A DNA stretch of 46,579 nucleotides from positions 1-46,579 of the forward strand of contig CANJRM010000016.1 of NCBI GenBank assembly GCA_947476645.1, in the 5' to 3' direction. The notes beneath the pieces are model-generated. The model was not told the DNA's origin and ran no database searches. It worked only from the letters and a program-made list of their open reading frames with translations. This document shows positions 12,424-31,756 of this stretch, piece by piece. Positions within the stretch are counted from its first letter, which is position 1, and every line of letters starts with the position of its first letter. The stretch is from Bacteroidota bacterium. Lineage in GTDB: Bacteria > Bacteroidota > Bacteroidia > Chitinophagales > LD1. Both the position numbers and the translations under genes were made by a program.

Positions 12424-12452
12424 AAAACACAAAAACCACCTCTGAAAGTGGT
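12424..12452 (-). terminator. Minus-strand terminator of module A
   Basis: On the minus strand, an AGCCACC / GGTGG(T) stem with a 9-nt loop is followed by TTTTTGTGTTTT. It lies about 35 bp past the stop of the 323-aa gene. Confidence 0.7.
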
Positions 12453-12488
12453 GGCTTTTGCTATAGTAACCAAAGCAAAATTTCTATC

Positions 12489-13460
12489 TTACTTCAACGT
12501 AATTTTAAAATGCAACGTCTCTGTTCCGCTTTGGTTCACGATAGTTATATAGCGGTGGGTGCCGTAGTCGGTAATGCCGAAGGCGGCTGCGGTAATGTTT
12601 AATTTAGCCGCATCACCGGTTACGGTTACAGGGGTGCTGTCAGTACCGTTAGCGGTGGTGGCGAGATAAACTTTGGCTGTGCCTGTGCCAAAAACTTCGA
12701 GCACTAAATCATCATCGGCTAAAAGCGTGCGGGTTACTACTGCTTTGTTTTCGTTTGGAGTCAGTGTACCGGTGAAAATGCTCTGGCGGTTTTCGCGCAG
12801 CGTGTCGAGGTCAAACAAAGGAGCAATGTCAATAGGGTTCTGATACCAGTTGTAAATGAAATAACCCACATCGCTGTATTGCAGTTTCATGGCTTCCATG
12901 CGCGAAGCATTAACGGCATTGCTTCCGCCCTTGGTGGTGGCTTTGCTGCTTTCCTGTGTGTCGCGGCTATCGTCCAAAGTAATGTAATAGGCATCTACTT
13001 CGGCTTTGGTAGCAGCAAGCGCGGCATCGGTGCCTATGGCTATGCTAAGGGCATTTACGGCATCTATACGTTCCTGAATGCTTTTGGTAGAGCCGAAAGG
13101 CGAACGGCCGTTAGGGAAGATAGCTTTGTAGCGCGGGGTATCGGGGTCATACACCAGCAATACCTGCGCCTCCCAGCGTTTTACTTTTTTGAGCAGCAGC
13201 TTTAAATTGAGGGTTACGTTCAGCGTTTCCCCCTCCTGCGTGCCGCCTGCGGCTTTCCAGGCGTTGTAGTCGGCCACTAACTGCAAGTGGGCGGTGTGGT
13301 AGCGGTTGTAAAGCGCCACAATATCGGGGTTAACGGGCAGTTCCAGCGATAGCTTTTTGAGGGCTGCATCGTGGTAGTTACTGAGCTTTACGGCTCGTTT
13401 GAAGTTTCTTGCGGTAACGTTTAGAAACTGATTGTCGATAAAGAACCAAATTCTTTCCAT
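12489..13460 (-). CDS. Module A 323-aa protein, unknown function
   Basis: A 323-residue protein with no signal peptide, lipobox or membrane segment. Residues 1-215 look helical and charged (for example LQLVADYNAWKAAGG, LLLKKVKRWEAQVLLVYDP, SIQERIDAVNALSIAIGTDAALAATKAEVDAYY). Residues about 235-323 look like a small all-beta domain (LTPNENKAVVTRTLLADDDLVLEVFGTGTAKVYL ... HRYITIVNQSGTETLHFKITLK). I recall similar unannotated Bacteroidota proteins, but no function is known to me. The start ATG lies 12 bp after the stop of the repeat ORF at 13473, so the two are cotranscribed; a terminator follows at 12424. The layout matches module B (30335-31357), whose large product is a different, 229-aa protein. 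Confidence 0.8.
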   Translation of the reverse strand: MERIWFFIDNQFLNVTARNFKRAVKLSNYHDAALKKLSLELPVNPDIVALYNRYHTAHLQLVADYNAWKAAGGTQEGETLNVTLNLKLLLKKVKRWEAQVLLVYDPDTPRYKAIFPNGRSPFGSTKSIQERIDAVNALSIAIGTDAALAATKAEVDAYYITLDDSRDTQESSKATTKGGSNAVNASRMEAMKLQYSDVGYFIYNWYQNPIDIAPLFDLDTLRENRQSIFTGTLTPNENKAVVTRTLLADDDLVLEVFGTGTAKVYLATTANGTDSTPVTVTGDAAKLNITAAAFGITDYGTHRYITIVNQSGTETLHFKITLK

Positions 13461-13472
13461 AATGGTTTGTTT

Positions 13473-13742
13473 TTAGATGAATGAATATTTATTGAATGAA
13501 GAATACGCGTGGTTTGAAACAACAGCAGTTACCGAAAAGTCGTTTTTTACTACTGTAACTCCTACAGGCATCATCTCGTTCGCGGTGGCGTCTGTTGGAG
13601 TTCCGACCTGCATCATATCGTTCGATATGGTAGTTGTAGGAGTTCCGACTTGCATCATATCGTTCGATATGGTAGTTGTAGGAGTTACAGTAGCTACCAT
13701 TTCCTTAAAAAGCATTTTTACTGAAGTTGCAGAAGTAATCAT
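13473..13742 (-). CDS. Module A short ORF with 14-residue tandem repeats
   Basis: An 89-residue frame from the ATG at 13742. Its middle is built of 14-residue units: VGTPTTTISNDMMQ, a preceding partial copy TPTTTISNDMMQ, and the diverged VGTPTDATANEMMP. It has no cysteine and no signal peptide from this start. The same frame stays open upstream to the TAG that ends the AraC gene, and that extra stretch reads as a signal-peptide-like segment (AKAHFVAIGAVACVLF), but it has no ATG. The array is also open on the plus strand (a frame from 13477), so coding strand is not proved. I chose the minus frame because module B has the same 14-residue period only on its minus strand, and because this frame ends 12 bp before the next gene. 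Confidence 0.5.
   Translation of the reverse strand: MITSATSVKMLFKEMVATVTPTTTISNDMMQVGTPTTTISNDMMQVGTPTDATANEMMPVGVTVVKNDFSVTAVVSNHAYSSFNKYSFI
13555..13697. repeat. 42-bp tandem array of module A with internal palindromes
   Basis: Units begin at GGAGTT in 13597, 13639 and 13681, with a diverged unit from about 13555. The two best units each contain CATATCG-TT-CGATATG (13614-13629 and 13656-13671). The array is bracketed by a 17-bp perfect inverted repeat: 13550-13566 (CTACTGTAACTCCTACA) against 13677-13693. Confidence 0.85.
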
Positions 13743-13810
13743 CGTTATTACCGTGTTTGCTTCGGCAAATAAAACACATGCTACAGCCCCGATTGCGACA
13801 AAGTGGGCTT

Positions 13811-13826
13811 TGGCGGTTAACCGCCA
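13811..13826. promoter_or_regulatory. 16-bp perfect palindrome between AraC-type gene and repeat ORF
   Basis: TGGCGGTTAACCGCCA lies 7 bp past the AraC-type stop codon (minus strand) and about 70 bp upstream of the repeat ORF start. No T run follows on either strand, so it is not a normal terminator. A dimer-binding operator is possible. Confidence 0.45.
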
Positions 13827-13832
13827 CTTGGG

Positions 13833-14189
13833 CTACTGCTTTGCCACCGTTTTAATAAGCACCAAAGGCAACACCCCGAACCTGCGTTTAAACAAGGCGG
13901 CAAAGTATCCGGGCTTTGTAAACCCCGCAGCTTTAGCTGCTTTGGCAACGCTGGTTACTTCCTTATTTTCAATCAATTGCTTGGCTTTAAGTAACTGATG
14001 TTCAGTAATATATTGCAGCACAGTTAAACCTGTTAATCGCTTTATTCTTCGCTCTAATGTTCTGCGCCCTGTGCCTGTTTGGTGCGCTAAAAAGAAAACC
14101 GATAAACGCGAGTCGGTTAAATGCAGAAGAATAATGCGTTTTGTTTGGCGGAACCATGCCGCTTCATTGAAAGTTGTTTTTGCTTTCAT
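13833..14189 (-). CDS. Stand-alone AraC-type DNA-binding protein
   Basis: A 118-residue protein that is almost only an AraC/XylS double helix-turn-helix. The first HTH is around residues 29-50 (LSVFFLAHQTGTGRRTLERRIKRLTG), followed by QYITEHQLLKAKQLIENK and the second HTH with the family signature VAKAAKAAGFTKPGYFAALFKRRFGVLP (residues about 82-109). No ligand-binding domain is present, so it is about a third of the usual AraC length. The N-terminus lacks some conserved residues but is intact. It is the promoter-proximal gene of module A and likely controls the repeat ORF and the 323-aa gene downstream. A large hairpin sits 6 bp before its ATG. Confidence 0.82.
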   Translation of the reverse strand: MKAKTTFNEAAWFRQTKRIILLHLTDSRLSVFFLAHQTGTGRRTLERRIKRLTGLTVLQYITEHQLLKAKQLIENKEVTSVAKAAKAAGFTKPGYFAALFKRRFGVLPLVLIKTVAKQ

Positions 14190-14195
14190 AACGTA

Positions 14196-14242
14196 GGTTT
14201 TAATGCCTGCTGCGGGCAGCAGGCAGGTGATGGATTAAAACC
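14196..14242 (-). promoter_or_regulatory. Nested hairpin in the leader of the AraC-type gene
   Basis: Outer arms GGTTTTAAT (14196-14204) and ATTAAAACC (14234-14242) enclose inner arms CCTGCTGC (14206-14213) and GCAGCAGG (14216-14223) with a 2-nt loop. In the minus-strand RNA this is a 17-bp stem with a 10-nt one-sided bulge, ending 6 nt before the ATG, where it could hide the ribosome site. It could also be a DNA operator or a dispersed palindromic repeat. Confidence 0.6.
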
Positions 14243-14355
14243 AAAAATAAAGGGTAGGGCAACAACTAGGAAATCAAAATTGAATCAAAAACAGGGAGTC
14301 CTTCAGGCGTTAAATTATCGCATAGATTAGTTGTTTTCTTATTTTATTTGCAGCC

Positions 14356-15189
14356 ATGAGAACTATTCTAACCACCGCCTTGTTTCTGCTTTCAATGGCC
14401 TCGTGCCGCTTTCCTTCCGCTGCACAAAAAGCCACCCTTTCTGACGAAACCTACGGGCCTTTCGCCCGCAATAAAATGGATGTGTATCTGCCCGGCACAC
14501 ACAGCAGCAGCACACCCGTGGTTATGCTTATACACGGTGGAGGCTGGGTAGCGGGCAATAAAACCGACTGGCCTGCCGAAGTAATTAATACCATAAAGGG
14601 CGAAGGGTATGCGGTGGCTACTATCAATTACCGCTATGCCGATGGCGATTTCCGTCATCAAATGCAGGATGTGCAAATGGCCATTAACTACATCAACAGC
14701 AAAGCCGCTGACTGGAACATAGGCACCAACCGCTTTGCGCTTATGGGCGCAAGTGCTGGCGCACATATGTCGCTCTTATACGCACATGGTTTCGATACCG
14801 CACAGGTGGTTAAAGCCGTTATATCCATGGCAGGTCCCTGCGATATGGCCGACTCTGTGTTTCAGCAGTATGCCAATAACTATTCTATTGGCTATGTGTT
14901 TCAGCAGTTTCTGGGTGCTACAGAACAAAGCAACCCGCAGGTGTATTACGATGCCAGCCCCGTTAACTATCATAAGCAGGTGCCTACCCTGTTATTTCAC
15001 GGTAGTTTAGATAACCTGGTGCCGCCTGCACACAGCCAGCGCATGTTCGACACGCTTACGGCTTATGGTGTAATTACCGACACCACATTTTTTGGAAATG
15101 CCGGGCACGATGTGGTAGGCCCCGGTTCGGTGAACATGACGCAGATATATGCCGAAGTGAAAGCCTGGCTGGCTTTGTATTTGCACTAA
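14356..15189 (+). CDS. Secreted or lipoprotein alpha/beta-hydrolase (carboxylesterase, BD-FAE/HSL-like)
   Basis: A 277-residue hydrolase. The oxyanion loop is HGGGW (about residues 60-64) and the nucleophile elbow is GASAG (about 134-138, Ser136). The acid is likely Asp in HGSLDNLVPP and the base His in GNAGHDVVGPG near the C-terminus. The N-terminus is a signal sequence with a lipobox-like SMASC; a Sec signal ending SAAQ is the alternative. The family hydrolyses esters such as acetyl or feruloyl groups on plant polysaccharide; the substrate here is unknown. It is a single gene on the plus strand, divergent from the AraC-type gene, and ends before a strong bidirectional terminator. Confidence 0.87.
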   Translation: MRTILTTALFLLSMASCRFPSAAQKATLSDETYGPFARNKMDVYLPGTHSSSTPVVMLIHGGGWVAGNKTDWPAEVINTIKGEGYAVATINYRYADGDFRHQMQDVQMAINYINSKAADWNIGTNRFALMGASAGAHMSLLYAHGFDTAQVVKAVISMAGPCDMADSVFQQYANNYSIGYVFQQFLGATEQSNPQVYYDASPVNYHKQVPTLLFHGSLDNLVPPAHSQRMFDTLTAYGVITDTTFFGNAGHDVVGPGSVNMTQIYAEVKAWLALYLH

Positions 15190-15315
15190 CAGTTCGCAAT
15201 TGCTTTGATAAATATTTCTGCCTTTTAGCCTTTGTTTTAAGCCGGGAGTTTCGTACTGCAACTTTGGGTAGAGCAGCATAAACAGGCAAGCAAAAGTAAA
15301 CTATCGATATTCCTG

Positions 15316-15361
15316 AAAAACAGAAAAGCCCCCCAATTACTCGGGGGGCTTTTCTGTTTTT
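15316..15361. terminator. Strong bidirectional intrinsic terminator
   Basis: AAAAACAGAAAAGCCCCCC at 15316-15334 pairs perfectly with 15343-15361 across an 8-nt loop. The A and T runs on both sides make it work for the hydrolase gene (plus) and the PhoD-like gene (minus). Confidence 0.92.
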
Positions 15362-15372
15362 AAAGCTAGAGA

Positions 15373-17478
15373 CTACCGCACCACGGTCAATCTCCTCTTC
15401 ACTGTTTCATTAGTTTGCAAACTGGTAACCGCACATACATAATTGCCGCTTGCCAGATTTGACACATCAAAGCTTTCGCTGCCGTTTACTTTTTCGTCAA
15501 GCAGGGTTTCGCCAAGCAGGTTTTGAATTTGAACGTGCAAAGGAATTTGCTCCGAAGACAGCACATACACCAAACCATCGGTAGGGTTCGGGTAAACCAC
15601 AATCTTTAAAGGAGCAGCTTCAACAATACCGTTTACGCCCACGTTCACGGTAACGCGTGCAACCGCACAGTTATAACACGAAGCATTGCTGTGGTCGCAC
15701 ACCACGTAATCAAAGGTATCGGTGCCGGTGTAGCCATTGGTTGGTGTGTAAGTAATGGTGTTGTCGCCATTCACCACCACCGTTCCGTTAGCCGGGTTTG
15801 TTTTCAGGTTCACAAACATCGGGTCGTTCTCAATATCTGAATCATTATTCAAAACAGTTACCGTAGCTGTGCCGTTGGTGGGGATATTCGCCACATCATT
15901 TACTGCATTTGGAATGCGGTTGATGTAATGAAGCGGATTGTATTTGTAAGCTTCGTTAGCCGCAAAAGTCCATCCGCAAATTTCGGCACCTGTGTTATCA
16001 TGCGCGCTCAAACGCAAAGAATCGTTGCCCCATGTTTCTACTTTACCAAACGATTGCTCAAAATTATTGGCATTGCACAAACCGGTTCCGCCTTTGTTCC
16101 AGATGTTGAAGTGCATAAACTGCTGATTGGTCATCCACTCTAAAGAGTTCGCCTTTTTCAAATTGCCGCTGTTCAGCTCAGGTAATCCCGAATTGGTTCC
16201 GTCATCTAAACCAACGGTGTGCGTATCGCCACTCACCACAAACACGTTCTTGATATTGTTATTCATAATGAAGGTCACGAGTGTGTCGGCATCTTCATGA
16301 AAGCCCGCCCAGCAGTCGGCATAATTTTGCACGGCTGTATAACCTTTGTTGGGTAAAGTAATGCCCGAAACAGCGGGAGCCCAGTAAGGCACTCCACCGT
16401 TTCCTATTTTCAAACAGGTATCGGTAGTAATGCGCAAACCAAGATTGAAAGCATCGCTGCTGATAATTATTTTCCATGTAGCCGTAGAGTTTGCCAATGC
16501 ATTCTTCAACCAGTTCATTTGGTTAGCACCTACTAACGAATAGCCAACAGGCGGAGAATACACCCAATTGCTTCCTACTTTTTTAATAGCAGCCGCCTGC
16601 GGGGTGCGCATAGAGCGAAGGTCAGGAACAAATATTTCTACGTTACCCGAACGGAAGCTGTGGTAAATTCCCTCGGTGCTGTCCACCACTTTATAACCGG
16701 GGAACCATTCGAGATAGGCTTTGATAGAATTCAAACGCGCCTGAACGGGTTGTGTGTAAACCGTTGGCGCACCCAGGTCGCCCAAAAAGTTTAAACCAAA
16801 ACCCGAGGTAGCATCATCACCACAGTTATCATTTAGAAAATCGTGGTCGTCATACATGTAATCGGTAGAAGTGGTTTGCATAAAGCCCAAATGGCTCGGG
16901 CTTTCGTAACGCATTTTGTAAAACGTTTGATGATTGCTGTAAGTAGCCGCATAACTTGTTGGCGGATTACTCAAATAAATATCCTGTGCGCCTGTAGCTG
17001 CATCAGGATAACCCCAATCGCCCATTTGTATAAATGCTTTTGGGTGATAAAGCCCCGCGCGGTTAAATAAAGTAGCGTTGCTGTCGAGCAAATCGTAAAT
17101 GCACGAGCCCGTTACAAACACCTGATGCGCGCTGGAATTAGCCGCGGCATGAAAGGTTTCGAAAGAGGCTACTGCACTTGCCGGCACCGCACTAATAGTT
17201 ACGCGCACATAATATTTAGTATCGGGTGCAAGCCCGGTTATGTTTACTATGGCTATGGTGTCTTTAGCTGCATCGGTAGTGCCGTTAAACGAAACCACAC
17301 CCGAAGAGAAATTACTTTGTGTGCTGGCTTCTACTGTAAAAGCAGTAGCCAATGAAGTGCGCACAAATACGCGGCACGAAGAATCAGTAACCCCGCCCAC
17401 AATAGGACCATGCGTTACTGTTTGCGCAAAACCAAGAAAAGAAAAGGAGAGGAGCAGGAGTGTAAAAATGTTTTTCAT
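15373..17478 (-). CDS. PhoD-like metallophosphatase/phosphodiesterase with T9SS type A tail
   Basis: A 701-residue secreted protein. A signal peptide (1-18, FLGFAQ) is followed by a fibronectin-like domain (VTHGPIVGGVTDSSCRVFVRT ... LAPDTKYYVRVTIS), the usual PhoD N-terminal domain. The metallophosphatase core shows QMGDWGYPD, YMYDDHDFLNDNCGDD, IISSDAFNLG and VVSGDTHTVGLDDGT, which supply metal-binding Asp, Asn and His residues. Near 535-620 is an Ig-like domain (VLNNDSDIENDP ... YTPTNGYTGTDTFDYVVCD), then a type A sorting domain (VYPNPTDGLVYVLSSEQ ... KRRLTVVR). It probably releases phosphate from phosphodiesters or phosphomonoesters at the cell surface. It is monocistronic, divergent from the TPR gene. 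Confidence 0.9.
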   Translation of the reverse strand: MKNIFTLLLLSFSFLGFAQTVTHGPIVGGVTDSSCRVFVRTSLATAFTVEASTQSNFSSGVVSFNGTTDAAKDTIAIVNITGLAPDTKYYVRVTISAVPASAVASFETFHAAANSSAHQVFVTGSCIYDLLDSNATLFNRAGLYHPKAFIQMGDWGYPDAATGAQDIYLSNPPTSYAATYSNHQTFYKMRYESPSHLGFMQTTSTDYMYDDHDFLNDNCGDDATSGFGLNFLGDLGAPTVYTQPVQARLNSIKAYLEWFPGYKVVDSTEGIYHSFRSGNVEIFVPDLRSMRTPQAAAIKKVGSNWVYSPPVGYSLVGANQMNWLKNALANSTATWKIIISSDAFNLGLRITTDTCLKIGNGGVPYWAPAVSGITLPNKGYTAVQNYADCWAGFHEDADTLVTFIMNNNIKNVFVVSGDTHTVGLDDGTNSGLPELNSGNLKKANSLEWMTNQQFMHFNIWNKGGTGLCNANNFEQSFGKVETWGNDSLRLSAHDNTGAEICGWTFAANEAYKYNPLHYINRIPNAVNDVANIPTNGTATVTVLNNDSDIENDPMFVNLKTNPANGTVVVNGDNTITYTPTNGYTGTDTFDYVVCDHSNASCYNCAVARVTVNVGVNGIVEAAPLKIVVYPNPTDGLVYVLSSEQIPLHVQIQNLLGETLLDEKVNGSESFDVSNLASGNYVCAVTSLQTNETVKRRLTVVR

Positions 17479-17602
17479 AAAAGGGATTTAAGGTAAATAT
17501 ACAAACGCAACTTAGGTAAGTAAAGAAACAAGTAATTTTTAAACGAGGTGTTAAGGCTGCAATAATTTTATACAATGCACGTCAGTACTGTTGAAAAAAC
17601 AG

Positions 17603-17634
17603 ATTGATTAAATTCGTTTACAAAATTACTTTCG
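17603..17634 (+). promoter_or_regulatory. Candidate promoter of the TPR gene
   Basis: ATTG at 17603-17606 and TACTTTCG at 17627-17634, separated by 20 bp, fit the TTTG / TAnnTTTG pattern with one mismatch in each box. The predicted leader is about 65 nt. Confidence 0.35.
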
Positions 17635-17706
17635 GTTTGTAGCTGATATAAAATAACGTTCTTTTACAGCGCAAGTGGAATTGATTCCTTCACTCAAAAT
17701 GTAACT

Positions 17707-19122
17707 ATGGAAGAAAATGAATCTCAGGAACCCTCTTTTGGCGAAATTATGGATTTGGTAAAACAGTATGAAGAGGCCGAAAAACTGAAGCGACCCATTT
17801 ATTTAGACGAAGAACACTACGAGCAAATTATACAGTTTTATCAGGAAAATCGCGCCCCGCAAAAAGCACTGCGTGTAATTGAAGAAGCACTCAATCAATA
17901 TTCTTTCTCGGGTTTTTTCTATATCAAGCAGGCAGAAATACTCGCCAACGATAAAAAGTTTGATGAAGCACTTTACGCTTTAGAAGAAGCGCAGAAGTTA
18001 GACCCTACCGACATCAATATATTTCTCATTCGTGCCGATGTGTATTTGTGGCAAGGCAAACATGCACAAGCCATAGCCGAAGCTGAATTTGCTTTAGCGC
18101 AGGCAACTGATACCGAAGATAAATGCGAATTGTATTTAGAGATAGCCGACATACTCGAAGACCAGCAGAAATATCCCGAAGTAGTAGAGATACTCAAAAC
18201 AGCCGTGCGGCTTGACCCTGCAAACGAAGAGGCGCTCAACCGTTTTTGGTTTTGTGTAGAACTAACGCAGGACTACGAAGGCAGCATTATATTTCATGAA
18301 GAAATAATTGAACAAAGTCCGTATGCACATTTGGCGTGGTTCAATCTGGGTCATGCCCATGCAGGTTTGCATCAGTATGAAAAAGCACTCGAAGCTTTTG
18401 AATATGTAATGGCTATAGATGAAAAGTTTGACGGAGCTTACATTTGTTGTGGCGATGTAAAATTTAATATGGAGCTGTATGAAGATGCGCTTCAGTATTA
18501 TATAGATGCTATTAAAATGTCGAAGCCGCAAAAAGAACTTTATCTCAAAACAGCGGAGACATATGAAATGCTCAACGAGCTTTCGAAGGCGCGCGCTTAC
18601 CTGCGCAAAGCTATTGCCGTTGACCCGTATTATGACGAAGCTTTCTTTCGCATTGGCGAAACGTATAGGGAGGAAGAAAAATGGCAGAAAGCTATTTCAT
18701 CGTTTGAACGTGCCGTTAAGCTCAATAAAGAAAACACCGAATTCTTAGCCGCACTTGCCGATGCTTACATGAGTGTAGATGATGGCGAAAAAGCACTTGA
18801 TATTTTTGAAAAACTTTTTCAACTCGACACGCAGGACAAACAGAACTGGATAAATCTTGCCACTGCCTATCTCAACGTAGAAGACTACCGCAAAGCATTT
18901 CAGGTATTGAATGAAGCAGAGCAGAAGTTTGAAAACAGTGCCGATATTTTCTACATCAAAGCAGTTTTCTATTTACAGGCGGGCAACAAACACGAAGCGC
19001 TTCTTAATCTGGAGCGCGGTCTGCTCATTAACTTCGATGAGCACACCATCATCTTCGATATGGATGATTCGTTACTCGATAACGAAACGGTGTTGAGTGT
19101 AATTGAACAATACAGAAGCTAA
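17707..19122 (+). CDS. Tetratricopeptide-repeat protein
   Basis: A 471-residue, strongly acidic protein made almost wholly of TPR units. At least ten 34-residue repeats can be followed, for example AFFRIGETYREEEKWQKAISSFERAVKLNKEN and ILANDKKFDEALYALEEAQKLDPTD. There is no signal peptide and no other domain, so it is probably a cytoplasmic scaffold. TPR proteins of this size are common single genes in Bacteroidota and their partners are usually unknown. The ATG at 17707 is preceded by a 228-bp divergent region shared with the PhoD-like gene. It converges with the YciI-like gene (16-bp gap). Confidence 0.9.
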   Translation: MEENESQEPSFGEIMDLVKQYEEAEKLKRPIYLDEEHYEQIIQFYQENRAPQKALRVIEEALNQYSFSGFFYIKQAEILANDKKFDEALYALEEAQKLDPTDINIFLIRADVYLWQGKHAQAIAEAEFALAQATDTEDKCELYLEIADILEDQQKYPEVVEILKTAVRLDPANEEALNRFWFCVELTQDYEGSIIFHEEIIEQSPYAHLAWFNLGHAHAGLHQYEKALEAFEYVMAIDEKFDGAYICCGDVKFNMELYEDALQYYIDAIKMSKPQKELYLKTAETYEMLNELSKARAYLRKAIAVDPYYDEAFFRIGETYREEEKWQKAISSFERAVKLNKENTEFLAALADAYMSVDDGEKALDIFEKLFQLDTQDKQNWINLATAYLNVEDYRKAFQVLNEAEQKFENSADIFYIKAVFYLQAGNKHEALLNLERGLLINFDEHTIIFDMDDSLLDNETVLSVIEQYRS

Positions 19123-19138
19123 CGTAGTTGGCTCTAAT

Positions 19139-19441: not shown

Positions 19442-19480
19442 AAACCAAATTTTTTCGGGCAAGATAATTTTCTTTGTGCA

Positions 19481-21004: not shown

Positions 21005-21045
21005 ATGCTTTTTTGTTTGGTTTTAAATTTTGCGCTGTAAAAATA

Positions 21046-21093: not shown

Positions 21094-21103
21094 CTTTTCA
21101 ACA

Positions 21104-24100
21104 TCAACGAATCAGCGTCACACTTCCTTTATACTTCTTGGTGGTGTTATCCATTTTTACAGCAGTAGCCGAGTAAACATAAACACCCATTGGCACTGGC
21201 GCGCCTTTGTAAGTTCCATCCCAACCGCTATAGAAATTATCGCTTTCAAAAACCTTTTCGCCCCAACGGTTGAAGATAGACCAGTTGATTTGTTTCACTC
21301 CGCTACCGAAAGGCAAATACACATCGTTGTTGCCATCACCTGTTGGAGTAAATGCGTTGGGCCAATAAACATTACCAAGAGGAATCACAAACAAATTGAT
21401 GTTGTCTGTTGCAGCGCATCCATAATTATCGGTGAAAGTAAGTGTGTAGCTAATTGTATCAGAAGCATAAGCCACTGTGTTTTGACAAGCTGTGCAGCTG
21501 AGCAACGTATCGGGTTGCCAGTTGTAAGTTCCGGTTGTAGTTGTTCCATCATTTACACTGGAGAACAAACCAACATAAGTTCCTTCATACGCAATTTTGT
21601 CTTCACCTAAATCAAGAAGTGGTAGCGGAACAAAATTTACATTCACACCATCAGTAGCAGAACAACCGTTTGCATCGGTCACTACAACTGAATAAATTCC
21701 TGCAATAGTCGGAACAATGGTTTGTGTTATTTCATTCGTGCTCCACAAGTAAGTTGCATAGCCACTTCCTGCATTAAGCATTACAGGCAATCCAATACAA
21801 AGCGTGGTATCGTTTCCAAGGGAAACGGTGAGTGCTTGCGGTTCAGTAATATTTGCAGTGGCAGTTCCTGTGCAACCAGCAAGGTCGCTTACGGTAACAT
21901 CATAATTTCCTGCTGAAAGATTTGAAATAGTGGCAGTGTTTCCCGCGTTACTCCAAACAAAACCATAAGGAGGATTTCCGCCCAAAGGATTTGCAGTAGC
22001 AGTTCCATCGTTTGCACCAAAGCAGGAAACGTTGGTAACAACTGTAGTTACATTTAAATTGTTGCTTGAAGCAGGAACAACAGCCGCCACAGTATCACTG
22101 CATCCGTTTACATCGCGCGTTATTACATTGTAATTTCCTGAAGCCACATTGCTGAAGACATTTTGTCCCTGATAATTTATTCCGTCAATGGAATAAGTGT
22201 AGGGCGGAACTCCTGCAATAGAAATGTTTACCGTAAGCGTTGCGTTGTTCAATCCGCATGTTGGTGGAATGAGCGTAACCGCAGTTTGTAAAAAGCAACA
22301 ACCTGTTGCAGGATTCACGGTTGCAGTTCCTGCAGTTGCACAACCCGAAGCATCGGTAACAGTAAAACCGTAACTGCCTGCAGCCATGTTCAATAGTGTA
22401 AATGTTACAGCCGAATTACTCCACAAAATACTCAGCGCTCCTGTTCCTCCACTCGCAGTTACAGTAACAGAGCCATCGTTTCCATTGCAGGTTTCATCAA
22501 CCACCGCAATATTATTTATTACAGGTGCATTCGGATTGCTCAATGAAAATGAAGTGTCAATAAAACAATTCGCGTAAGCATTATCGGTAATGGTTACTAA
22601 ATAATTTCCTGCACCGAGTGTTGTAACGGCAGAAGTATTTTGTCCGCCACCCCATGCGTAAGTGTAATTTCCTGAACCGTTTGTCGATGTGATGGCAATG
22701 CTTCCGTTGGTTTGTGCGCATGCAGGTTGTGCAAGCACAGCGCTTATAGTAAACGTGCAACAATTTGCAGGAGCAACTAATGCAGCATTTGCTGTGGCTG
22801 TGCATCCTAAAGCATCGGTTACAGAAATACTTACCGCACCTGCCGGAACTGTATTGATAGTTGTTGATGGAATAGGCACAGGTGAATTGATAGTGAACGA
22901 AGTTCCGTTGGTATCAATGGTAATTGCATAAGGAGCAGTTCCACCACCTAAACTAAAAGTAATAGAGCCATCGCTTCCTGCACAAGTTGGATTGATTGGA
23001 TTAGTCAACGAAACATTCAACGTACTGTTTGAGTTCAAGGTGAAAGTAGTATCAATAAAACAATTCACGAAACCGTTATCTGTAATGGTAACTGAGTAAG
23101 TAGCTGCTCCAACATTTGTTACTGCAGAAGTATTTTGTCCACCGCCCCATGCGTAAGTATAATTGCCTGAACCACCTGCCGGAGTAAGCGAAACACTTCC
23201 ATTGTTTTGTCCGCAGGTTGGTTGAACAAGAACCGCACTAACTGTAAACCCGCAACAATTTACAGGAGCAGTTAATACTGCATTTGCAGTCGCTGTGCAT
23301 CCTAAAGCATCGGTCACCGAAATATTTACTGCGCCTGCCGGAACTGTATTGATAGTTGTAGAAGGTATAGGGAAAGGTGAATTGATAGTGAACGAAGTTC
23401 CGTTGGTATCAATGGTAATTGCATAAGGAGCAGTACCACCACTTAAACTAAAAGTAATAGAGCCATCGCTTCCTGCGCAGGTTGGATTGATAGGATTCGT
23501 CAATGAAACATTCAACGTGCTGTTTGAATTTAAGGTAATCGTTGTATCGAATGTGCAGGTTGGTGTATTTACATCGGTAATAGTAACCGTGTATGTTCCT
23601 GCACCCAATCCTGTTCTGTTTTGCAAAACAGAAGGTCCATCACTCCATGCATACGAATATGTTCCCGCTGGTACAGGATTTACATTGATGCTTCCGTTAG
23701 TTCCACCGCATGTGGGTTGCACTTGAGTAACAGTCGCACTCAATCCGCAACAGGCATGTGTGGTTACATTAATAACATCGTTTTGTGTAACGCATCCTGC
23801 AGTATCAGAAACAGTAAGCGTATAAGCCGTTGGTGGCGGACAGACCGTTGGTGTAAGTGTCAAAGGATTTGTCATACCCGCAGTTGGGTTCCAATTGAAA
23901 TTTCCTACGTATGCAATTTCGGGGTCGTTAAAGGATATACTCCAGCTATTGAAGTTACCTGTAGGAAGTGAGAATCCGTTAAACACTGCAACCAAGTGAA
24001 GCGACCAAACTCCATTTGCACTACAACCTGCAAGTCCGTTGAATGATTGATTAGGCGCATAATTACCTGTGTATGGCGAAGCAGCACTGATGATGTTACT

Positions 24101-25333: not shown

Positions 25334-25342
25334 TGTTTCTGT

Positions 25343-25753: not shown

Positions 25754-25818
25754 TTGTCAGGGGGTTAAGGTTAGTGATATTTTAAAGACGATAAATAATT
25801 TCAAATAGATGTCACGTT

Positions 25819-28800
25819 CTATAACTTAATCAACTTCAACGTGACCGCATGTTTAGCACTTGACACCCGCATCATATAAATACCACTGGCTACGTTCAGT
25901 TCAATTTCAGATTTTGCGCTTACAATTTCTGATAGATAAACCAATCTGCCGTTATCATCGAATATTTCCACTTTGCTACCTATCGCATTCGCTCCTGTTT
26001 CTAAAGTCCAGTAACCGTTTTCTAACGGGTTAGGATAAACTCTCAACGGTTCACCTTCTAGCAATGAAGCTATGCCTACTGTGTTTATTGAAATAGGATT
26101 TGATGTAACACGGCATCCGTTGGTATCGGTAATAGCCAGTGTATAAGTTCCGTTTTGTGTGGCAACATAAATGTGGTTGGTTGCACCACTAATTGCCCCA
26201 CCATTGAAATACCATTGATACGTAACTGCATTATAAGCAGTAAGTGTATCACCATTTACGCTGATAGAAACCGGAGGCAACGGATAAACCTGAACAGGCA
26301 CGTGGTTAGAAGTTGCGGTGCAGTTTCCTGCATCGGTTACAGTTACATAATAGTTGCCTGCATTGTGCGCATAGATACATTGCGTGGTAGCACCGTTATT
26401 CCACAAGTAAGAATTGTAAGTGTTATCGGCACAAACCTGAATACTGTCACCTGCGCACATAATAGGATTTGCCGCTGTTACATGCACAGTTCCGTTTCCG
26501 CTTGGGCTTATAATCATACTGGCGGTTGAACTGCAACCACCGTTATCATTCACTGTTACGGTGTAAGTTCCTGCTGCAAGATTTGAAAGCGAAGAACCGC
26601 TTCCGCCACCGCTCCAGCTGTAAGAATAAGAACCGCTTCCGCCTGTGGCTGTTACACTTGCCGTGCCGTTATTGTTTCCGCAGCTTGTGTTTACAGCAGA
26701 AGGTGTAAGTGTAATTCCTCCCGATGAAATAATACTAACCGTAGCTGTAGCGGTACAATTTCCTGCGCCAGTTACCGTAACATTATAAGTTCCTGCGGCT
26801 AGGCTACTAGCTGTTTGTGTAGTAGCTCCATTACTCCAAACGTAAGTATAAGGACCTGTGCCTGCTGTTACATTTGCAGTTACCGAACCTGTTGATGTGC
26901 AACCTGCATTTGTTCCCGATGTAGTTAACGAAACTCCTGCCGTTGAACTTACATTGATACTTGCGGTAGCTGTACAATTTCCGCTTCCAGTCACTGTAAC
27001 TGTATATGTTGCGGCTGCAAGGTTTAATAAAGATGAAGTAGTTCCTCCATTGCTCCAAGCATAAGTAAATGGTCCTGTGCCGCTGGTAATGCTCACACTT
27101 GCAGTACCGTTATTATTGCCGCAAGCTGCCGGAGTAAATGATGAAGAAAGACCAACACCACTTCCAGATGCTCCAACAATTGCAGTAGCTGTAGCCGTGC
27201 AGTTTCCTGCTCCTGTTACAGTAACAGTATAATTTCCTGCTGAAAGATTAGAAGCAGTTTGTGTAGTTGCTCCGCCTGTCCACAGATAAGTATATGGTCC
27301 GCTACCCGCGGTTATGTTAGCTGTGGCAGAACCTGTTGCTGTGCAACCCGCATTTGTAGTTGTTGCGTTTACTGTAATACCTATTGACGATGCAACAGTA
27401 GCCGCAGCAGTCACCGAGCATCCGCTGGCTGTAACGGTTACTGTATAATTTCCCGCAGTTAAATTAGAGGCAGTAGCTGTAGTAGCTCCACTGCTCCAGC
27501 TATAAGCTGTTGGTGTAGCACCACTTGGGTTTACAGTAGCGCTGCCGTTGTTACCACCACAAGTTGTTCCTGTAGTTGATGCACTTGCTGTCATTGAACA
27601 ACTGGTACAATTTGGCAACGATGCTAAACTGGTAATGGTAATAGTATTGTTATCACCGTCTGTTACTCGAATTGGATAAGTACCCGGTGGTGTTGCAGTA
27701 GCTCCGGTAGCAAAAGTTGTCCATGTAGTAACAGTGGTACCAGCACAAAAAATAGGTATGCAAGTACCCAGGGGACAACCGCTACAATCAAGTGTTGTGG
27801 TTTGACTTTGCCATGTATAAGGACTTGTTCCTCCTGAAACTGTGATTGTTCCGTTTTGATTTTGGCAAGGACTAAGTTGAGCGCAATTATTTACTGTAAT
27901 GAAAATAGAATCGGCTCCGCAACCAATGGTATTTACAATAGTGTGTGTTCCTGACCCTGCAATGGCAGGACTAAATGCACCAGTCGAAGAGTTTGTAATT
28001 CCCGCACCACTCCAAACTCCGTTGGTAGTTGTGGTTAAAGTAACCGGTGCATCGGTGCTGCAAAAAGGACCTGCCTGACAAATGGAAGCATCGCAACAGG
28101 TAATAGCCTGCGATGCACAAGAACCCGCAGGAATAGATTGAATGTATCCTGTTCGCGCACCTGAATTTGCCGTACCTGTGGAACCACCTGCAATAATATC
28201 GCCATTGGTATTTATGTGCACATCATACACATTAAATGTAGTAGCATAAGTTGCTAACTGATTTAAACTTTGGTCGTATTTTACCACCTGGTTTTTTGAC
28301 CCCACGTAAATGTTTCCGCAAACATCAATATCAATACCGCTGTTTTCTACATAAGAAGAACCAAACGAAGTGGTATAAGCTCCACCCGGTATGGCAACTG
28401 AAGCAACTATGGCTCCGGTAGCTATAACTCTCTTATCTAACGTGGTACCTTTTACCGAATACACATAAGCACCAAAAGATTTTAATGCACAAATACCCGT
28501 GTTGTTGTAACGGAAGTTTTCGCATTTATAACCGTAGTGGTAACTATTGTTGATATAATGTTTTGCATTGAGAGGATTAGAGCACATACCGAAATTCTGA
28601 TTGATGAATCCGATTGAATCGTGGGTGAGGAAATAATATTTCCCGTTACCACAGGCTGTAATGCAACGAACTTCCTGCGTAGGGAAAAGTGCACCGCCTG
28701 TAATTTGCACACTGCTGGTTACGTTTCCGTTGCTCATATCTACCTGATAAATGTAAGGCAATGGAGGTAGTGTGTTTCCTGTTCCGCCAATAACTAATTT

Positions 28801-30051
28801 GGTTTGGTCGCAGTTAAATGAAATACTCCAAAACTCTGTAGATGCAAAAATGCCTCCGGGGTTTCCGTTGTTCCAAACCATAGAGCCTGCGGTACTTATT
28901 TTTTGAATAGCTGCAATAGAGCCTTGGGTAACATACGAGTTACCTGCTGCATCGGTAGCAAAAGTTCCAAGCCATGAGGTGGTATCGTAAGGTGTGCTGT
29001 ATGTCCACTGAAGTGTTCCTGCATTGTTGTATTTTATTAATTGCATAGGAGAAGTTCCTCCAATTACATACACATTTCCTGCTGCATCTTTTTCGCATTC
29101 CCATACACAATCCCATTGGGTGCTGCTAAAATTCGGAGTTTGTGTCCAGGGGTCAATAGTTACTTCCTTAGTATGGTCGTAGTTGGCTAACTGAAACGAA
29201 ATTGTTTTTCCATTTCTTACAAACTTCGATTCAATAATTGAATTCAGTTTGTTAGCAAGAACGGTATGCAGTATTTTGTTTGCATCAACGTATGATTGAG
29301 CAGGCTGTTCTTTTGCAGCAGTATAAAAACTTTGAGGGGTGTGGTCAACAATATCTCCAAATTTTGTTTCGATATGAATGTTTTGTTGCGCATCAACAGA
29401 AACTTTTTCGGTGCCGCTGTATTTCATTTTTATTTGCGAAGCATCGGCACCCGGGTGGAGAATGAATGAATATTCGATACCGGTTTCAGGATGAAAAACA
29501 TAGACTACATCAATATTCGGATAAAGGTTTTTGTAAATTATTTTTTGAAAACCTTTAGCACGGTCTATACTTTTATTGCCCATTCCAAAATTGAAATAAT
29601 TGTCAACCGCTTTTTCTGCCACCACCTGCACATCGGGGTTGGAGTTTTGCCACTGCATAAAAATATTTTCAACCTGAAGATGAGCTGCGTTTTCTTCTTC
29701 TTCCATTTGCTTATGGCTCATTTTTTTACCCGCGCGGTATTTTTCCATTACCTCATTTTCTCTTTCCTGCCGTTTGTTCGCATCGGGCATATCTTTTTTG
29801 GTGAGGCGATAGGTTACCCCGGTTTTAGTAAACAGAAACTGAACGGGAGCATACTGCGTTCCAAAAACTATTTTGGAACCTGGCAAATGGCTCAGTTGAT
29901 TGAACTGCCCCTTGTTTTCGATAAACACTTTTTGTGTTTCGAATTTTGCCTGCCAGCCTGTTTGTGAAGTTTGTGCAACTAAATGTGCTGCGCTAAATAA
30001 AATTACTGTTAGCAAAACTGCTTTAGAAGCAGCGAGTAAATTTTTTTCCAT
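25819..30051 (-). CDS. Giant T9SS type A surface protein with DUF7948-like N-terminal domain and SprB-like repeats
   Basis: 1410 residues from the ATG at 30051 (MEKNLLAASKAV), chosen because it begins a proper signal peptide. The frame extends to 30150, but that part overlaps a terminator and the promoter-like leader. Residues about 30-310 (KVFIENKGQFNQL ... YKNLYPNIDVVYVFHPETGIEYSFILHPGADASQIKMKYSG) match the domain often called DUF7948, found before propeller repeats in Bacteroidota. Then comes a stretch with propeller-like repeats (DAAGNVYVIGGTSPMQLIKYN). Next are about six SprB-like repeats (core GPYTYLWTGGATTQTASNLSAGNYTVTVTGAGNC). The end is a type A sorting domain (VYPNPLENGYWTLET ... 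GIYMMRVSSAKHAVTLKLIKL). It is likely an adhesin. Confidence 0.92.
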   Translation of the reverse strand: MEKNLLAASKAVLLTVILFSAAHLVAQTSQTGWQAKFETQKVFIENKGQFNQLSHLPGSKIVFGTQYAPVQFLFTKTGVTYRLTKKDMPDANKRQERENEVMEKYRAGKKMSHKQMEEEENAAHLQVENIFMQWQNSNPDVQVVAEKAVDNYFNFGMGNKSIDRAKGFQKIIYKNLYPNIDVVYVFHPETGIEYSFILHPGADASQIKMKYSGTEKVSVDAQQNIHIETKFGDIVDHTPQSFYTAAKEQPAQSYVDANKILHTVLANKLNSIIESKFVRNGKTISFQLANYDHTKEVTIDPWTQTPNFSSTQWDCVWECEKDAAGNVYVIGGTSPMQLIKYNNAGTLQWTYSTPYDTTSWLGTFATDAAGNSYVTQGSIAAIQKISTAGSMVWNNGNPGGIFASTEFWSISFNCDQTKLVIGGTGNTLPPLPYIYQVDMSNGNVTSSVQITGGALFPTQEVRCITACGNGKYYFLTHDSIGFINQNFGMCSNPLNAKHYINNSYHYGYKCENFRYNNTGICALKSFGAYVYSVKGTTLDKRVIATGAIVASVAIPGGAYTTSFGSSYVENSGIDIDVCGNIYVGSKNQVVKYDQSLNQLATYATTFNVYDVHINTNGDIIAGGSTGTANSGARTGYIQSIPAGSCASQAITCCDASICQAGPFCSTDAPVTLTTTTNGVWSGAGITNSSTGAFSPAIAGSGTHTIVNTIGCGADSIFITVNNCAQLSPCQNQNGTITVSGGTSPYTWQSQTTTLDCSGCPLGTCIPIFCAGTTVTTWTTFATGATATPPGTYPIRVTDGDNNTITITSLASLPNCTSCSMTASASTTGTTCGGNNGSATVNPSGATPTAYSWSSGATTATASNLTAGNYTVTVTASGCSVTAAATVASSIGITVNATTTNAGCTATGSATANITAGSGPYTYLWTGGATTQTASNLSAGNYTVTVTGAGNCTATATAIVGASGSGVGLSSSFTPAACGNNNGTASVSITSGTGPFTYAWSNGGTTSSLLNLAAATYTVTVTGSGNCTATASINVSSTAGVSLTTSGTNAGCTSTGSVTANVTAGTGPYTYVWSNGATTQTASSLAAGTYNVTVTGAGNCTATATVSIISSGGITLTPSAVNTSCGNNNGTASVTATGGSGSYSYSWSGGGSGSSLSNLAAGTYTVTVNDNGGCSSTASMIISPSGNGTVHVTAANPIMCAGDSIQVCADNTYNSYLWNNGATTQCIYAHNAGNYYVTVTDAGNCTATSNHVPVQVYPLPPVSISVNGDTLTAYNAVTYQWYFNGGAISGATNHIYVATQNGTYTLAITDTNGCRVTSNPISINTVGIASLLEGEPLRVYPNPLENGYWTLETGANAIGSKVEIFDDNGRLVYLSEIVSAKSEIELNVASGIYMMRVSSAKHAVTLKLIKL

Positions 30052-30137
30052 GTTGTGTGTAAGGTTTATGTTTGGGGAAAACAGCGACCGAAGATAAACG
30101 TTCATTTGAATTACGGGAATATTTTTTGAACGCGGTT
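30049..30137 (-). promoter_or_regulatory. Conserved ~85-bp promoter/leader element, copy 1
   Basis: It is about 80% identical by eye to 34981-35064 in the same orientation. Conserved blocks on the minus strand are AAATATTCCC, TGAACGTT, TATCTTCG (30089-30096), TTTCCCC and ACACACAACATG. TATCTTCG fits TAnnTTTG with one change and lies 18 bp after the TTCCC block. The element ends at the start codon of the 1410-aa gene, suggesting shared control of two surface-protein units. Confidence 0.65.
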
Positions 30138-30148
30138 GACCATTGTGC

Positions 30149-30181
30149 AAAAAAAGAAGTTCCGCCTACCCGCGGAACTTC
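30149..30181 (-). terminator. Terminator of the candidate small RNA
   Basis: GAAGTTCCGC (30156-30165) and GCGGAACTTC (30172-30181) form a perfect 10-bp stem with a 6-nt loop. On the minus strand it is followed by seven T. It lies upstream of the promoter element of the 1410-aa gene, so it does not end a known gene. Confidence 0.82.
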
Positions 30182-30219
30182 CCACCTATGAAAACAGGCA
30201 CACCCACTATGCACTGTTT
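30150..30219 (-). ncRNA. Candidate ~70-nt small RNA
   Basis: An independent minus-strand unit between two terminators. A well-spaced promoter (30226-30257) should start RNA near 30219, and the terminator at 30149-30181 would end it. The 5' part (AACAGTGCATAGTGGGTGTG) is unpaired or weakly paired. No known RNA family is recognised. A minus-strand frame from 30256 crosses it, but its ATG lies upstream of the predicted transcript start. Confidence 0.45.
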
Positions 30220-30225
30220 CGAAAT

Positions 30226-30257
30226 CTAAAATAAGGTTGGGTATTCTATTTTCCAAA
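30226..30257 (-). promoter_or_regulatory. Promoter of the candidate small RNA
   Basis: On the minus strand, TTTG (30257-30254), 20 bp, then TATTTTAG (30233-30226). This fits the Bacteroidota TTTG / TAnnTTTG pattern with one change, the same TTAG variant seen at 8518-8525. Confidence 0.5.
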
Positions 30258-30293
30258 AAAAAATGGAGATTTTTTTGGGGGGTTTAAATAGAT

Positions 30294-30330
30294 AAAAAAA
30301 GCCCCGCATTACTGCGAGGCGTTTTTTTTG
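30294..30330. terminator. Terminator of module B
   Basis: GCCCCGCA (30301-30308) and TGCGAGGC (30313-30320) form a stem (one G-T wobble) with a 4-nt loop. Seven A on the left act as the T run for the minus strand, and eight T on the right allow plus-strand use. It lies next to the stop of the 229-aa gene. Confidence 0.85.
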
Positions 30331-30334
30331 TTTC

Positions 30335-31024
30335 CTAAAATCCGGTAACGGTAATTTCAATCGGGGTGCTCCAAACACCTACTTCTTCATCGCTTACCAC
30401 ATAACGAATTTTGTATTTAAAAACTTTGCTGGTTCCTGCAGCAGGTAGAGTGGGGTCTAAATAATGTGCCAGCAAAATTCGGCCGGCATCTTTAAATCCT
30501 GCACCGTCACCGTGGTCAACCTGAATATCGGCTGCATCGGTATGCTCGTGTTTCCAGGTTAAATAACCATGACCGTTTTTAAGCGATATTTTTGGTTGTG
30601 GCTGAATGGTAGCAAAATCGGGATTTATTTCGGCTCCTATAATGCCTAAGTTTTGACCCATAACGGTGGTATAAGCCGGATTCTTTTTAATAGACTGAAC
30701 TAAATCGGCATTGCGTTGAAAAATGCCTGCCAGTACTAAGGTTGGGGCCCCGGCAATAACGGGTGGCACATGTACTACGCCAATAGGCGATGGGCTGCCA
30801 TCGCGCAGGGCATTTTTGTAAGCGGTTAAGGTTTTAGAATACTCATCAAACGGCTGAATGAGTGTAAATACGAAGCCGAAATAGGCGGAATCGTCTTGAA
30901 CTGCGGTAACAACTCCTGCCGCAAGGTTCAACGCTGCTGCATAAGAGCCCAGCACAGTGGCAAAGTTAGCGAGCCAGATAACTTTTCCGGTGTCGGTTTT
31001 GGGAAGATAATACTGATGTTCCAT
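30335..31024 (-). CDS. Module B 229-aa protein with C-terminal fibronectin-like domain, unknown function
   Basis: 229 residues without signal peptide or membrane segment. The N-terminal 105 residues are helical (VIWLANFATVLGSYAAALNLAAGVVTAVQDD ... LTAYKNALRDGSPSPIGV). Next comes a conserved-looking block, GIFQRNADLVQSIKKNPAYTTVMGQNLGIIGAE (about 112-144). Residues 150-229 look like a fibronectin-III-like sandwich (HGYLTWKHEHTDAADIQVDHGDGAGF ... FKYKIRYVVSDEEVGVWSTPIEITVTGF). I recall similar ~220-aa unannotated proteins in many Bacteroidota, often in several copies; no function is known to me. It follows the repeat ORF by 18 bp and precedes a terminator, the same order as module A, though the two proteins are unrelated in sequence. 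Confidence 0.82.
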   Translation of the reverse strand: MEHQYYLPKTDTGKVIWLANFATVLGSYAAALNLAAGVVTAVQDDSAYFGFVFTLIQPFDEYSKTLTAYKNALRDGSPSPIGVVHVPPVIAGAPTLVLAGIFQRNADLVQSIKKNPAYTTVMGQNLGIIGAEINPDFATIQPQPKISLKNGHGYLTWKHEHTDAADIQVDHGDGAGFKDAGRILLAHYLDPTLPAAGTSKVFKYKIRYVVSDEEVGVWSTPIEITVTGF

Positions 31025-31042
31025 GATAAAAAGGGGGGTTAG

Positions 31043-31357
31043 TTATGAAATAAAAGGTTGAATTGATGTCAAGTATGTTTTCTCTGCACCTGAGAAAGTT
31101 GCCGCTGCTATCGGGGCAACCCGCTGTGTTATTGAGAGAGTTTTCTGAACCATTGCGGCAACCCGCTGAGTAGCGTAGAAAGTTTTCTCTATGGCTGAGA
31201 AAACCCGCTGAGTAACGCAGAAAGTTTTCTCTGCTTTAGAGAAAACCCGCTCAATGGCAAAGAAAGTTGCCGGTGTTACTACGGCAACCCGCTGAGTTCC
31301 GGAGAAAGTTGCCTTTGCTTTGGAGAAAATAGTGCTTGTGTTTAAAACTGCCTGCAT
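31043..31357 (-). CDS. Module B short ORF with 14-residue tandem repeats
   Basis: A 104-residue frame from the ATG at 31357. After MQAVLNTSTIFSKAK, six units of exactly 14 residues follow: ATFSGTQRVAVVTP, ATFFAIERVFSKAE, KTFCVTQRVFSAIE, KTFYATQRVAAMVQ, KTLSITQRVAPIAA and ATFSGAEKTYLTSI. The period equals two heptads and the units are basic and amphipathic, so a helix or coiled coil is possible. There is no signal peptide. The minus frame is the only long one here. It ends 18 bp before the 229-aa gene and is divergent from a small DNA-binding-like gene. The underlying DNA forms a hairpin in most units, so the peptide may be secondary to a nucleic-acid role. Confidence 0.5.
   Translation of the reverse strand: MQAVLNTSTIFSKAKATFSGTQRVAVVTPATFFAIERVFSKAEKTFCVTQRVFSAIEKTFYATQRVAAMVQKTLSITQRVAPIAAATFSGAEKTYLTSIQPFIS
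31098..31340. repeat. 42-bp tandem array of module B with arm-covarying hairpins
   Basis: Units start at 31098, 31140, 31182, 31224, 31266 and 31308. Each has a hairpin half starting GTT and a spacer half starting CCCGCTG and ending AGAAA. Stems are GTTGCC/GGCAAC (31098-31120), GTTTTCTC/GAGAAAAC (31182-31204 and 31224-31246) and GTTGCCG/CGGCAAC (31266-31288). The units at 31140 and 31308 have mixed arms and do not pair well. Confidence 0.88.
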
Positions 31358-31410
31358 AGTTGCGTTTGTGTTTTACAAAGGCAAAAATAAAGAGCAGGCA
31401 GTTTACAAGC

Positions 31411-31426
31411 GTACGAATATTCGTAC
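31411..31426. promoter_or_regulatory. 16-bp perfect palindrome, candidate operator of module B
   Basis: GTACGAATATTCGTAC lies in the 118-bp divergent gap between the repeat ORF (start 31357) and the small DNA-binding-like gene (start 31476). Its position and symmetry suit a dimeric repressor controlling both directions. Confidence 0.5.
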
Positions 31427-31475
31427 TTTCTTCTTTTTTAAAACGATTTTATATTTAGGATACAAATTGAATCGT

Positions 31476-31724
31476 ATGGAGGTTAACATCTTTATAGCTA
31501 AATTCAGAGTTGACGTTATGGTGTATATTGATAAAACAAAAACCAAGCATGCTCCCTTTGCCAGACGGTGCAATATGCTGCGCCCTAATTTTTGTCAATG
31601 GCTCAGTTCAAAAGGCGGCATGAACCTGAAATCGTTTTGCGATGTGTATGTAGAAATAGGAGGCGAGCTGCAGGATATTTTAGATGCGTTATACAAAAGG
31701 CAACAGGAGAAGGAAATTTTGTAA
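31476..31724 (+). CDS. Small HTH-like protein of module B
   Basis: 82 residues from the ATG at 31476 (MEVNIFIAKFRVDVMVYIDK). The frame continues upstream to 31320, but that stretch overlaps the start of the repeat ORF and the palindrome. Residues about 27-62 (FARRCNMLRPNFCQWLSSKGGMNLKSFCDVYVEIGG) look like a Cro/XRE-type helix-turn-helix, with a first helix, a turn around LRPNFCQWL, and a following helix. The fit is by eye and not strong. It is divergent from the repeat ORF, with a palindrome between them, so a regulatory role for module B is the natural guess. Confidence 0.55.
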   Translation: MEVNIFIAKFRVDVMVYIDKTKTKHAPFARRCNMLRPNFCQWLSSKGGMNLKSFCDVYVEIGGELQDILDALYKRQQEKEIL

Positions 31725-31730
31725 AACAAC

Positions 31731-31756
31731 AAAGGCACCCTGTTACAGATGCCTTT
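31731..31756 (-). terminator. Terminator after the small lipoprotein gene
   Basis: AAAGGCA (31731-31737) and TGCCTTT (31750-31756) form a 7-bp stem with a 12-nt loop. On the minus strand it is followed by GTTGTTTTAC. It could end the TonB-receptor unit; on the plus strand no T run follows. Confidence 0.5.

Follow-up and report, generated by a model that had tools for sequence, protein, structure and literature searches.

Two modules, A and B, lie in the 46,579-nucleotide contig CANJRM010000016.1 of a Bacteroidota bacterium (assembly GCA_947476645.1; the whole stretch is called the window here). In each of them a tandem array of 42-bp units stands upstream of one gene, encoding a protein of 323 residues in A and 229 residues in B. 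At homologous loci in the same genus an array was found upstream of the gene in 45 of 47 scorable cases and downstream in none of 42. The letters of the arrays vary from locus to locus and the period is constant, at 41 or 42 bp for family A and 21 or 42 bp for family B. That the spacing is fixed and the letters differ suggests recognition by DNA geometry and not by sequence. The reading we tentatively prefer, at a probability of about 0.42, is that the array is a DNA platform read via its spacing and dyad symmetry, the A or B protein being the likeliest reader.

An earlier note, written by a model from the letters of the window alone, had described the two modules as members of a family of cassettes in which the architecture is kept and the parts vary. 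Its coordinates and gene order were borne out, as was the 42-bp period in both arrays of the window, and the recurring cassette is supported by the homologues, across which the shared period proved real and general.

Linkage and pitch at homologous loci

Arrays were scored as self-similarity at lags of 15 to 60 within 650 bp of the gene, with a threshold of 39 of 63. For family A, 29 loci were tested (fragment L038 was excluded beforehand and two matches had no locus), 27 of them with 300 bp of upstream sequence; for family B, 21 were tested (fragments L055 and L065 excluded), 20 of them with 300 bp. All 27 scorable A loci had an upstream array, 12 at lag 41 and 15 at lag 42, and so did 18 of the 20 scorable B loci, 3 at lag 21 and 15 at lag 42. 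The B loci L007 and L009 gave peaks at 42 and 21 that were below the threshold. Downstream of the gene no array was found at 25 A loci or at 17 B loci, and none of 123 overlapping 700-bp pieces of the window, the two module arrays excluded, passed as a control.

Among more distant relatives, an array was upstream in 11 of 17 B loci and downstream in 2; of three distant A loci one had it upstream and two downstream. The distant B locus L077 has a lag-21 peak below threshold, and L082 has no array within 650 bp, with weak repeats farther away.

Twenty-one and 42 bp correspond to two and four turns of B-DNA at 10.5 bp per turn. The units adjoin directly and have no spacers between them; a CRISPR (clustered regularly interspaced short palindromic repeat) array was rejected, as the units are contiguous rather than constant repeats parted by unique spacers. 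When pitch (41 or 42) is mapped on a tree built from 28 A proteins, two changes are required, against 9.4 with shuffled labels, and none of 500 shuffles was as low. At L026, an A gene of genome G003, the 42-bp upstream array recurs at the end of the same contig (L133:1-170), giving two sites in that genome.

In the genome that contains the window (3.56 Mb, 90% complete, in 201 contigs), family A numbers five genes and family B four. In a family-level survey of 30 genomes, this one included, A was present in 10 and B in 6, all in its own genus, with up to nine A or B copies in a genome. Profile searches of 395 genomes of the phylum gave B in 6 and A in 3, again counting the genome itself. A Candidatus Kapaibacterium metagenome-assembled genome has five B-type genes by profile search and is represented by six loci in the locus set; its type and B are true relatives (hhalign probability 97%). 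Homology between A and B was rejected, since the comparison gave no relationship, in agreement with the earlier view that the two are unrelated in sequence.

The 323- and 229-residue proteins had no convincing match in Pfam, NCBIfam, PHROGs, PADLOC or the sequences of solved structures, and the anti-phage defence profiles of PADLOC-DB matched none of six proteins at E 0.1. Plasmid, phage and viral-contig relatives of the modules were sought and none was found. The helical N-terminal and beta C-terminal parts ascribed to both proteins are visible, but in models of low confidence (mean predicted local distance difference test scores, pLDDT, of 45 and 56). A fold search with these models found the C-terminus of B to be FN3-like and that of A to resemble several beta-sandwich domains; it was not used to assign function. 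Both products are probably cytosolic, two-domain proteins, the absence of a leader on them having been judged by eye.

DNA, RNA or peptide

When the units of an array are printed in register many of them are seen to be inverted repeats. Against a control in which the columns were permuted identically in all units of an array, dyads were in excess at p<0.05 in 25 of 46 gene-linked arrays. The same test was passed by 8 of 23 arrays with no adjoining A or B gene (from the own genome and relatives, L068 entered twice), and 17 of these had z>0. More than one Watson-Crick type is carried by 35 of the paired column pairs.

An alternative is that the array is a transcribed leader, in which a chain of RNA hairpins before A or B would control its expression or be bound by the encoded protein. 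Many arrays end less than 60 bp from the start codon, a gap that could scarcely accommodate a promoter, and at most loci both strands of the array give a better fold than letter shuffles do. Against an RNA leader, departures from pairing, read in the direction of the gene, comprise 44 G-U and 38 A-C events (p 0.58) and thus no G-U excess; G-T was observed 171 times against 189 expected from composition; the sense strand is the better folding strand in only 19 of 47 arrays; Rfam gave no match in the window; and convergent gaps between genes also hold arrays with no A or B. The G-U/A-C and strand comparisons thus favour DNA, which is the form we predict to be active, and do so weakly, as the units of one array share a history. 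The RNA leader is one of the two strongest rivals, and an improbable one.

The earlier note had seen in each module a short open reading frame (ORF) made of 14-residue repeats, ending 12 bp before the main gene in A and 18 bp before it in B. These distances are correct, and a translated ORF upstream of the main gene could draw on the open frames of both modules, on the open sense frame kept in 20 of 32 scorable 42-bp arrays (3 of 35 were too short), and on a total of 32 open sense frames in 32 arrays against 22.0 in column-permuted arrays and 21 antisense. The idea of a conserved repeat peptide was nevertheless wrong. A sister group within the same protein family uses 41 bp, a pitch at which a repeat peptide is impossible, so that its 12 arrays cannot encode one, and only 2 of the 12 have an open sense frame; a further 12 of the 32 scorable 42-bp arrays lack one too. 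Nine arrays have a single open frame, and in these the three codon positions vary about equally (0.31, 0.37 and 0.32). The repeat peptide was rejected on the pitch of 41, the even variation and the missing frames, and we give it very little credence. A sub-threshold match of the module B ORF to Pfam Bacteriocin_II (E 0.0068, 16.8 bits, cut-off 24.5) was taken as chance.

Turnover of letters and rival origins

Arrays were compared in 11 pairs of loci with genes that are 68-93% identical. They were clearly similar in three pairs (L030/L035, L041/L043 and L042/L044) and modestly above the permuted level in three (L049/L060, L056/L057 and L023/L032). In the other five (L061/L064, L003/L035, L003/L030, L003/L046 and L005/L031; three of them include L003) they were at most 1.5 standard deviations from the permuted level or were below it, with genes that are still 68-85% identical. 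Between L003 and L035 the gene (0.78) and the leader between array and gene (0.71) are retained and the array is not (0.50, null 0.54). Around their unrelated arrays, L061 and L064 show 84-87% identity on either side, and about 300 bp upstream is common to them too. The three pairs with similar arrays have array, leader and gene in common and little beyond. When the loci were compared with each other by blastn, no flank, whether leader or tail, was common to unrelated arrays. L077 and L082 were considered as a case of swapped arrays and rejected: at both loci a weak array lies within the stretch conserved between them, and it is the segment separating array from gene that differs.

At the place corresponding to module B, two relatives still have the genes for the TonB receptor and the lipoprotein, next to which other genes lie; the cassette is absent and no exact empty site was seen. 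The contig of a third relative (L182) ends too early to show the site. A 41-bp array with no A gene in view (L183:5104-5452, genome G015) lies next to an esterase gene orthologous to the one beside module A.

Arrays are also found away from A and B. A scan of 400 kb of the genome plus the window, for tandem arrays at lags of 10-79, found 17, of which 13 lie outside ORFs of at least 250 residues. Twelve of these 13 are at 21 or 42, two of them being the window's own, and one is at 72, in a 245-residue ORF; the four arrays within long ORFs are at lags of 18, 51, 57 and 78. The 400-kb sample thus adds ten intergenic arrays at these pitches, of 11 in all, and none of the ten adjoins an A or B gene; extrapolation from these ten suggests some 90 arrays per genome. 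By eye, the gaps that hold them are tandem, divergent and convergent. Compared with 523 kb of the genome's own DNA, the arrays had no match outside themselves except for one marginal reciprocal pair between two arrays. In samples of 4 to 40 kb from each of 21 other genomes, a non-ORF array at 21 or 42 was present in 4 of 8 genomes that carry A or B and in 0 of 13 that do not, where five arrays had other lags (68, 17, 63, 14 and 22); this difference is suggestive only, as carriers were mostly sampled on the contig with A or B and samples of non-carriers were often shorter.

One such array of the own genome (L122, 9860-10133, 21/42 bp) lies between a gene for a 242-residue protein (9106-9834, minus strand) and one for a 161-residue protein (10280-10765, plus strand). 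The 242-residue protein has no Pfam match, and comparison did not establish a relationship to B; its gene is possibly a further array-linked family. The 161-residue protein resembles, by eye, the product of the gene upstream of the L054 array in another genome. Another 21/42-bp array with no A or B (L127:17361-18155) adjoins a 128-residue Cro/XRE-type helix-turn-helix (HTH) gene (HTH_3, E 1.5e-5).

All this could also be read as the spread, between genes, of fast-evolving minisatellites that have no function of their own and resemble miniature inverted-repeat transposable elements (MITEs), with A and B as the cargo of mobile cassettes. The arrays are found between genes, in most cases with no A or B nearby, their letters turn over rapidly, and the cassettes are patchy, multicopy and missing from the orthologous place in two relatives. 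There is, moreover, a precedent in the same phylum: BrickBuilt of Porphyromonas gingivalis, a minisatellite within a MITE, has a 23-nt unit and 19 arrays in strain ATCC 33277 (PMC4596501). Both cases have intergenic, spacerless tandem arrays, many per genome, in Bacteroidota, but BrickBuilt has one common unit, leader and tail, whereas here each locus has a private unit, a pitch of 21, 41 or 42, dyads and a linked gene family. A BrickBuilt-type MITE was rejected: no single unit recurred at all loci in the 523 kb, and no common leader or tail was found; terminal inverted repeats were not searched for as such. Spread without function is also at odds with a pitch that is 21, 41 or 42 and hardly anything else, with the retained dyads, with the lack of a common leader or tail in unrelated pairs of loci and with the position in the genus, upstream of the gene at 45 of 47 scorable loci and downstream at none. 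Together with the RNA leader it is the strongest rival to a DNA platform, and we regard it as unlikely, though less so than the RNA leader. Even plain minisatellites would leave the near-uniform pitch of the sampled intergenic arrays in one genome to be explained.

On the preferred reading, that of a DNA platform, each module is a discrete cassette consisting of a dyad array of fixed pitch, a short leader and one A or B gene. The array would act as double-stranded DNA, its dyads lying on one face of the helix and letting a protein assemble along it. Selection would act on spacing and symmetry and not on letters, such that arrays drift or are replaced, with the pitch remaining bound to the lineage of the protein. 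The predicted occupant of a gene-linked array would most likely be the protein encoded next to it, A or B, which would control its own gene through the upstream region and perhaps act on arrays elsewhere in the genome too. A further layer of regulation may come, at some loci, from a small HTH protein that binds a 16-bp operator of its own.

Several observations weigh against this reading. The dyad test at p<0.05 was failed by 21 of the 46 gene-linked arrays and by 15 of the 23 with no A or B. A or B genes are missing beside the majority of the genome's arrays, the distant B genes L079 and L083 have no array that could be found, and at four distant loci the array is downstream of the gene. The clade-bound pitch could be a matter of descent alone, unit duplication preserving the pitch. 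The excess of open sense frames is unexplained by a pure DNA element, and library searches for a known DNA-binding domain in A and B gave none.

A further close parallel is sopC, the centromere of the F plasmid, which consists of twelve 43-bp tandem units, each with an inverted repeat, bound by the ParB protein of F (PMC9178275). Its unit is of similar length to the pitch of 41-42 bp found here, where many arrays have dyads, and sopC lies beside the gene for the protein that binds it, as the arrays here lie beside A or B. It differs in its conserved sequence; the present arrays are chromosomal, number about ten per 400 kb and have private letters. No ParA or ParB match was found among A, B and 11 small genes, the neighbours scanned. 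Linked DNA elements are normally recognised through conserved letters. Iterons, REP/BIME palindromes and phased operator arrays, too, have a conserved sequence bound by a known protein; they resemble the present arrays in having phased repeated sites or intergenic palindromes, and differ from them in that it is pitch and dyads, not letters, that the present arrays conserve. Full-text literature searches, from which most subscription papers and all preprints were absent, turned up no account of gene-linked arrays of this kind.

What sets these arrays apart is that their letters can turn over wholly between close paralogues, and that the genus retains their pitch, their dyads and their placement with respect to the gene, all of which recur in distant relatives. 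A wider and rather doubtful extension is that they form a class of element inheriting geometry and not sequence: some ninety arrays with private letters, at two or four turns, read by lineage-specific proteins (A, B and their relatives), would make up a network of loading platforms for chromosome organisation or gene control, a system of which the literature searched has no description. If this were true, homology searches would be blind to the class and a search based on pitch would be needed, and the reading of helical spacing by proteins with little sequence specificity would become testable.

Small genes, palindromes and features of the window

In the direction of the gene, module A has the order AraC-type HTH gene, 16-bp palindrome, array, 323-residue gene and terminator-like stem; module B has a divergent small gene, 16-bp palindrome, array, 229-residue gene and terminator-like stem (Table 1). 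A perfect 16-bp palindrome in each control region had been noted and is present. The proposal of a small DNA-binding gene in each module holds for the AraC type in A and is unproven for B, where the 82-residue product had no match in Pfam or PADLOC. Stems follow both genes, as had also been proposed, and their number exceeds that in shuffles only in the module B region (7 against 2.2, compared with 3 against 3.6 for A).

Table 1 Features of modules A and B in the window
Feature	Position	Strand	Remark
Terminator-like stem 3' of gene A	12435..12452	-	stem number not above shuffles
Family A protein gene, 323 aa	12489..13460	-	no known domain
Module A repeat ORF, 89 aa	13473..13742	-	open frame across array; conserved peptide unsupported
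Array A (L001), pitch 42 bp	13522..13752	-	dyad-symmetric units, dyad z 3.9
16-bp perfect palindrome, module A	13811..13826	.	probable operator of small HTH protein
Stand-alone AraC-type HTH gene, 118 aa	13833..14189	-	Pfam HTH_18, E 8.4e-19
Terminator-like stem 3' of gene B	30301..30320	-	
Family B protein gene, 229 aa	30335..31024	-	FN3-like C-terminus in low-confidence model
Module B repeat ORF, 104 aa	31043..31357	-	open frame across array; conserved peptide unsupported
Array B (L006), pitch 42 bp	31063..31331	-	dyad-symmetric units, dyad z 3.7
16-bp perfect palindrome, module B	31411..31426	.	probable operator
Small divergent gene, 82 aa	31476..31724	+	HTH-like by eye only

The homologues were expected, in the earlier note, to have both the repeat ORF and a regulator. 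An element of 42-, 41- or 21-bp period is regularly upstream; many homologues have no open frame across it, as described above, and most have no recognisable regulator. A small DNA-binding-like gene, chosen by eye from ORF lists, is beside 11 of 47 arrays. Five of these genes are above the Pfam cut-off (AraC at L001, HTH_3 at L007 and L023, GerE at L032 and L047) and L024 has a weak GerE match (E 0.034); those at L006, L048, L049, L060 and L063 match no HTH family and are HTH-like by eye only.

The window has six perfect palindromes of at least 14 bp, against a mean of 2.2 in five single-letter shuffles. Near-perfect palindromes (loop 0-2, arms of at least 8) within 180 bp upstream of the array were found at 6 of 45 arrays, two others being too near the contig end, and in 6 of 400 GC-matched control windows. 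They are present at 5 of the 11 loci with an HTH-like gene and at 1 of 34 others (Fisher p 0.002), classes that were drawn after viewing the loci and in which L048 and L060 are not independent. These two loci, from different genomes, agree in the small gene (z 37) and carry the same 16-bp palindrome letter for letter, and their arrays are unrelated (identity 0.54, null 0.53). This suggests that the small protein probably has its own operator, the palindrome, and that the array is something else.

The array as a multi-site operator of the adjoining small HTH protein is thus very unlikely. Genes of AraC, Cro/XRE, LuxR or unrecognised type do lie near the 11 arrays, but at 36 of 47 no such gene is in view, and L048 and L060 make the palindrome a stronger candidate for the operator. 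L031 has an inverted repeat with 16-bp arms (33 bp) about 96 bp upstream of its 41-bp array, and no small HTH gene in view.

Elsewhere in the window, a long tandem repeat with a unit of about 495 bp, in two to three copies, occupies 22553-23719. The longest perfect palindrome of the window, 28 bp at 8661-8688, lies just past the end of a gene and is terminator-like.

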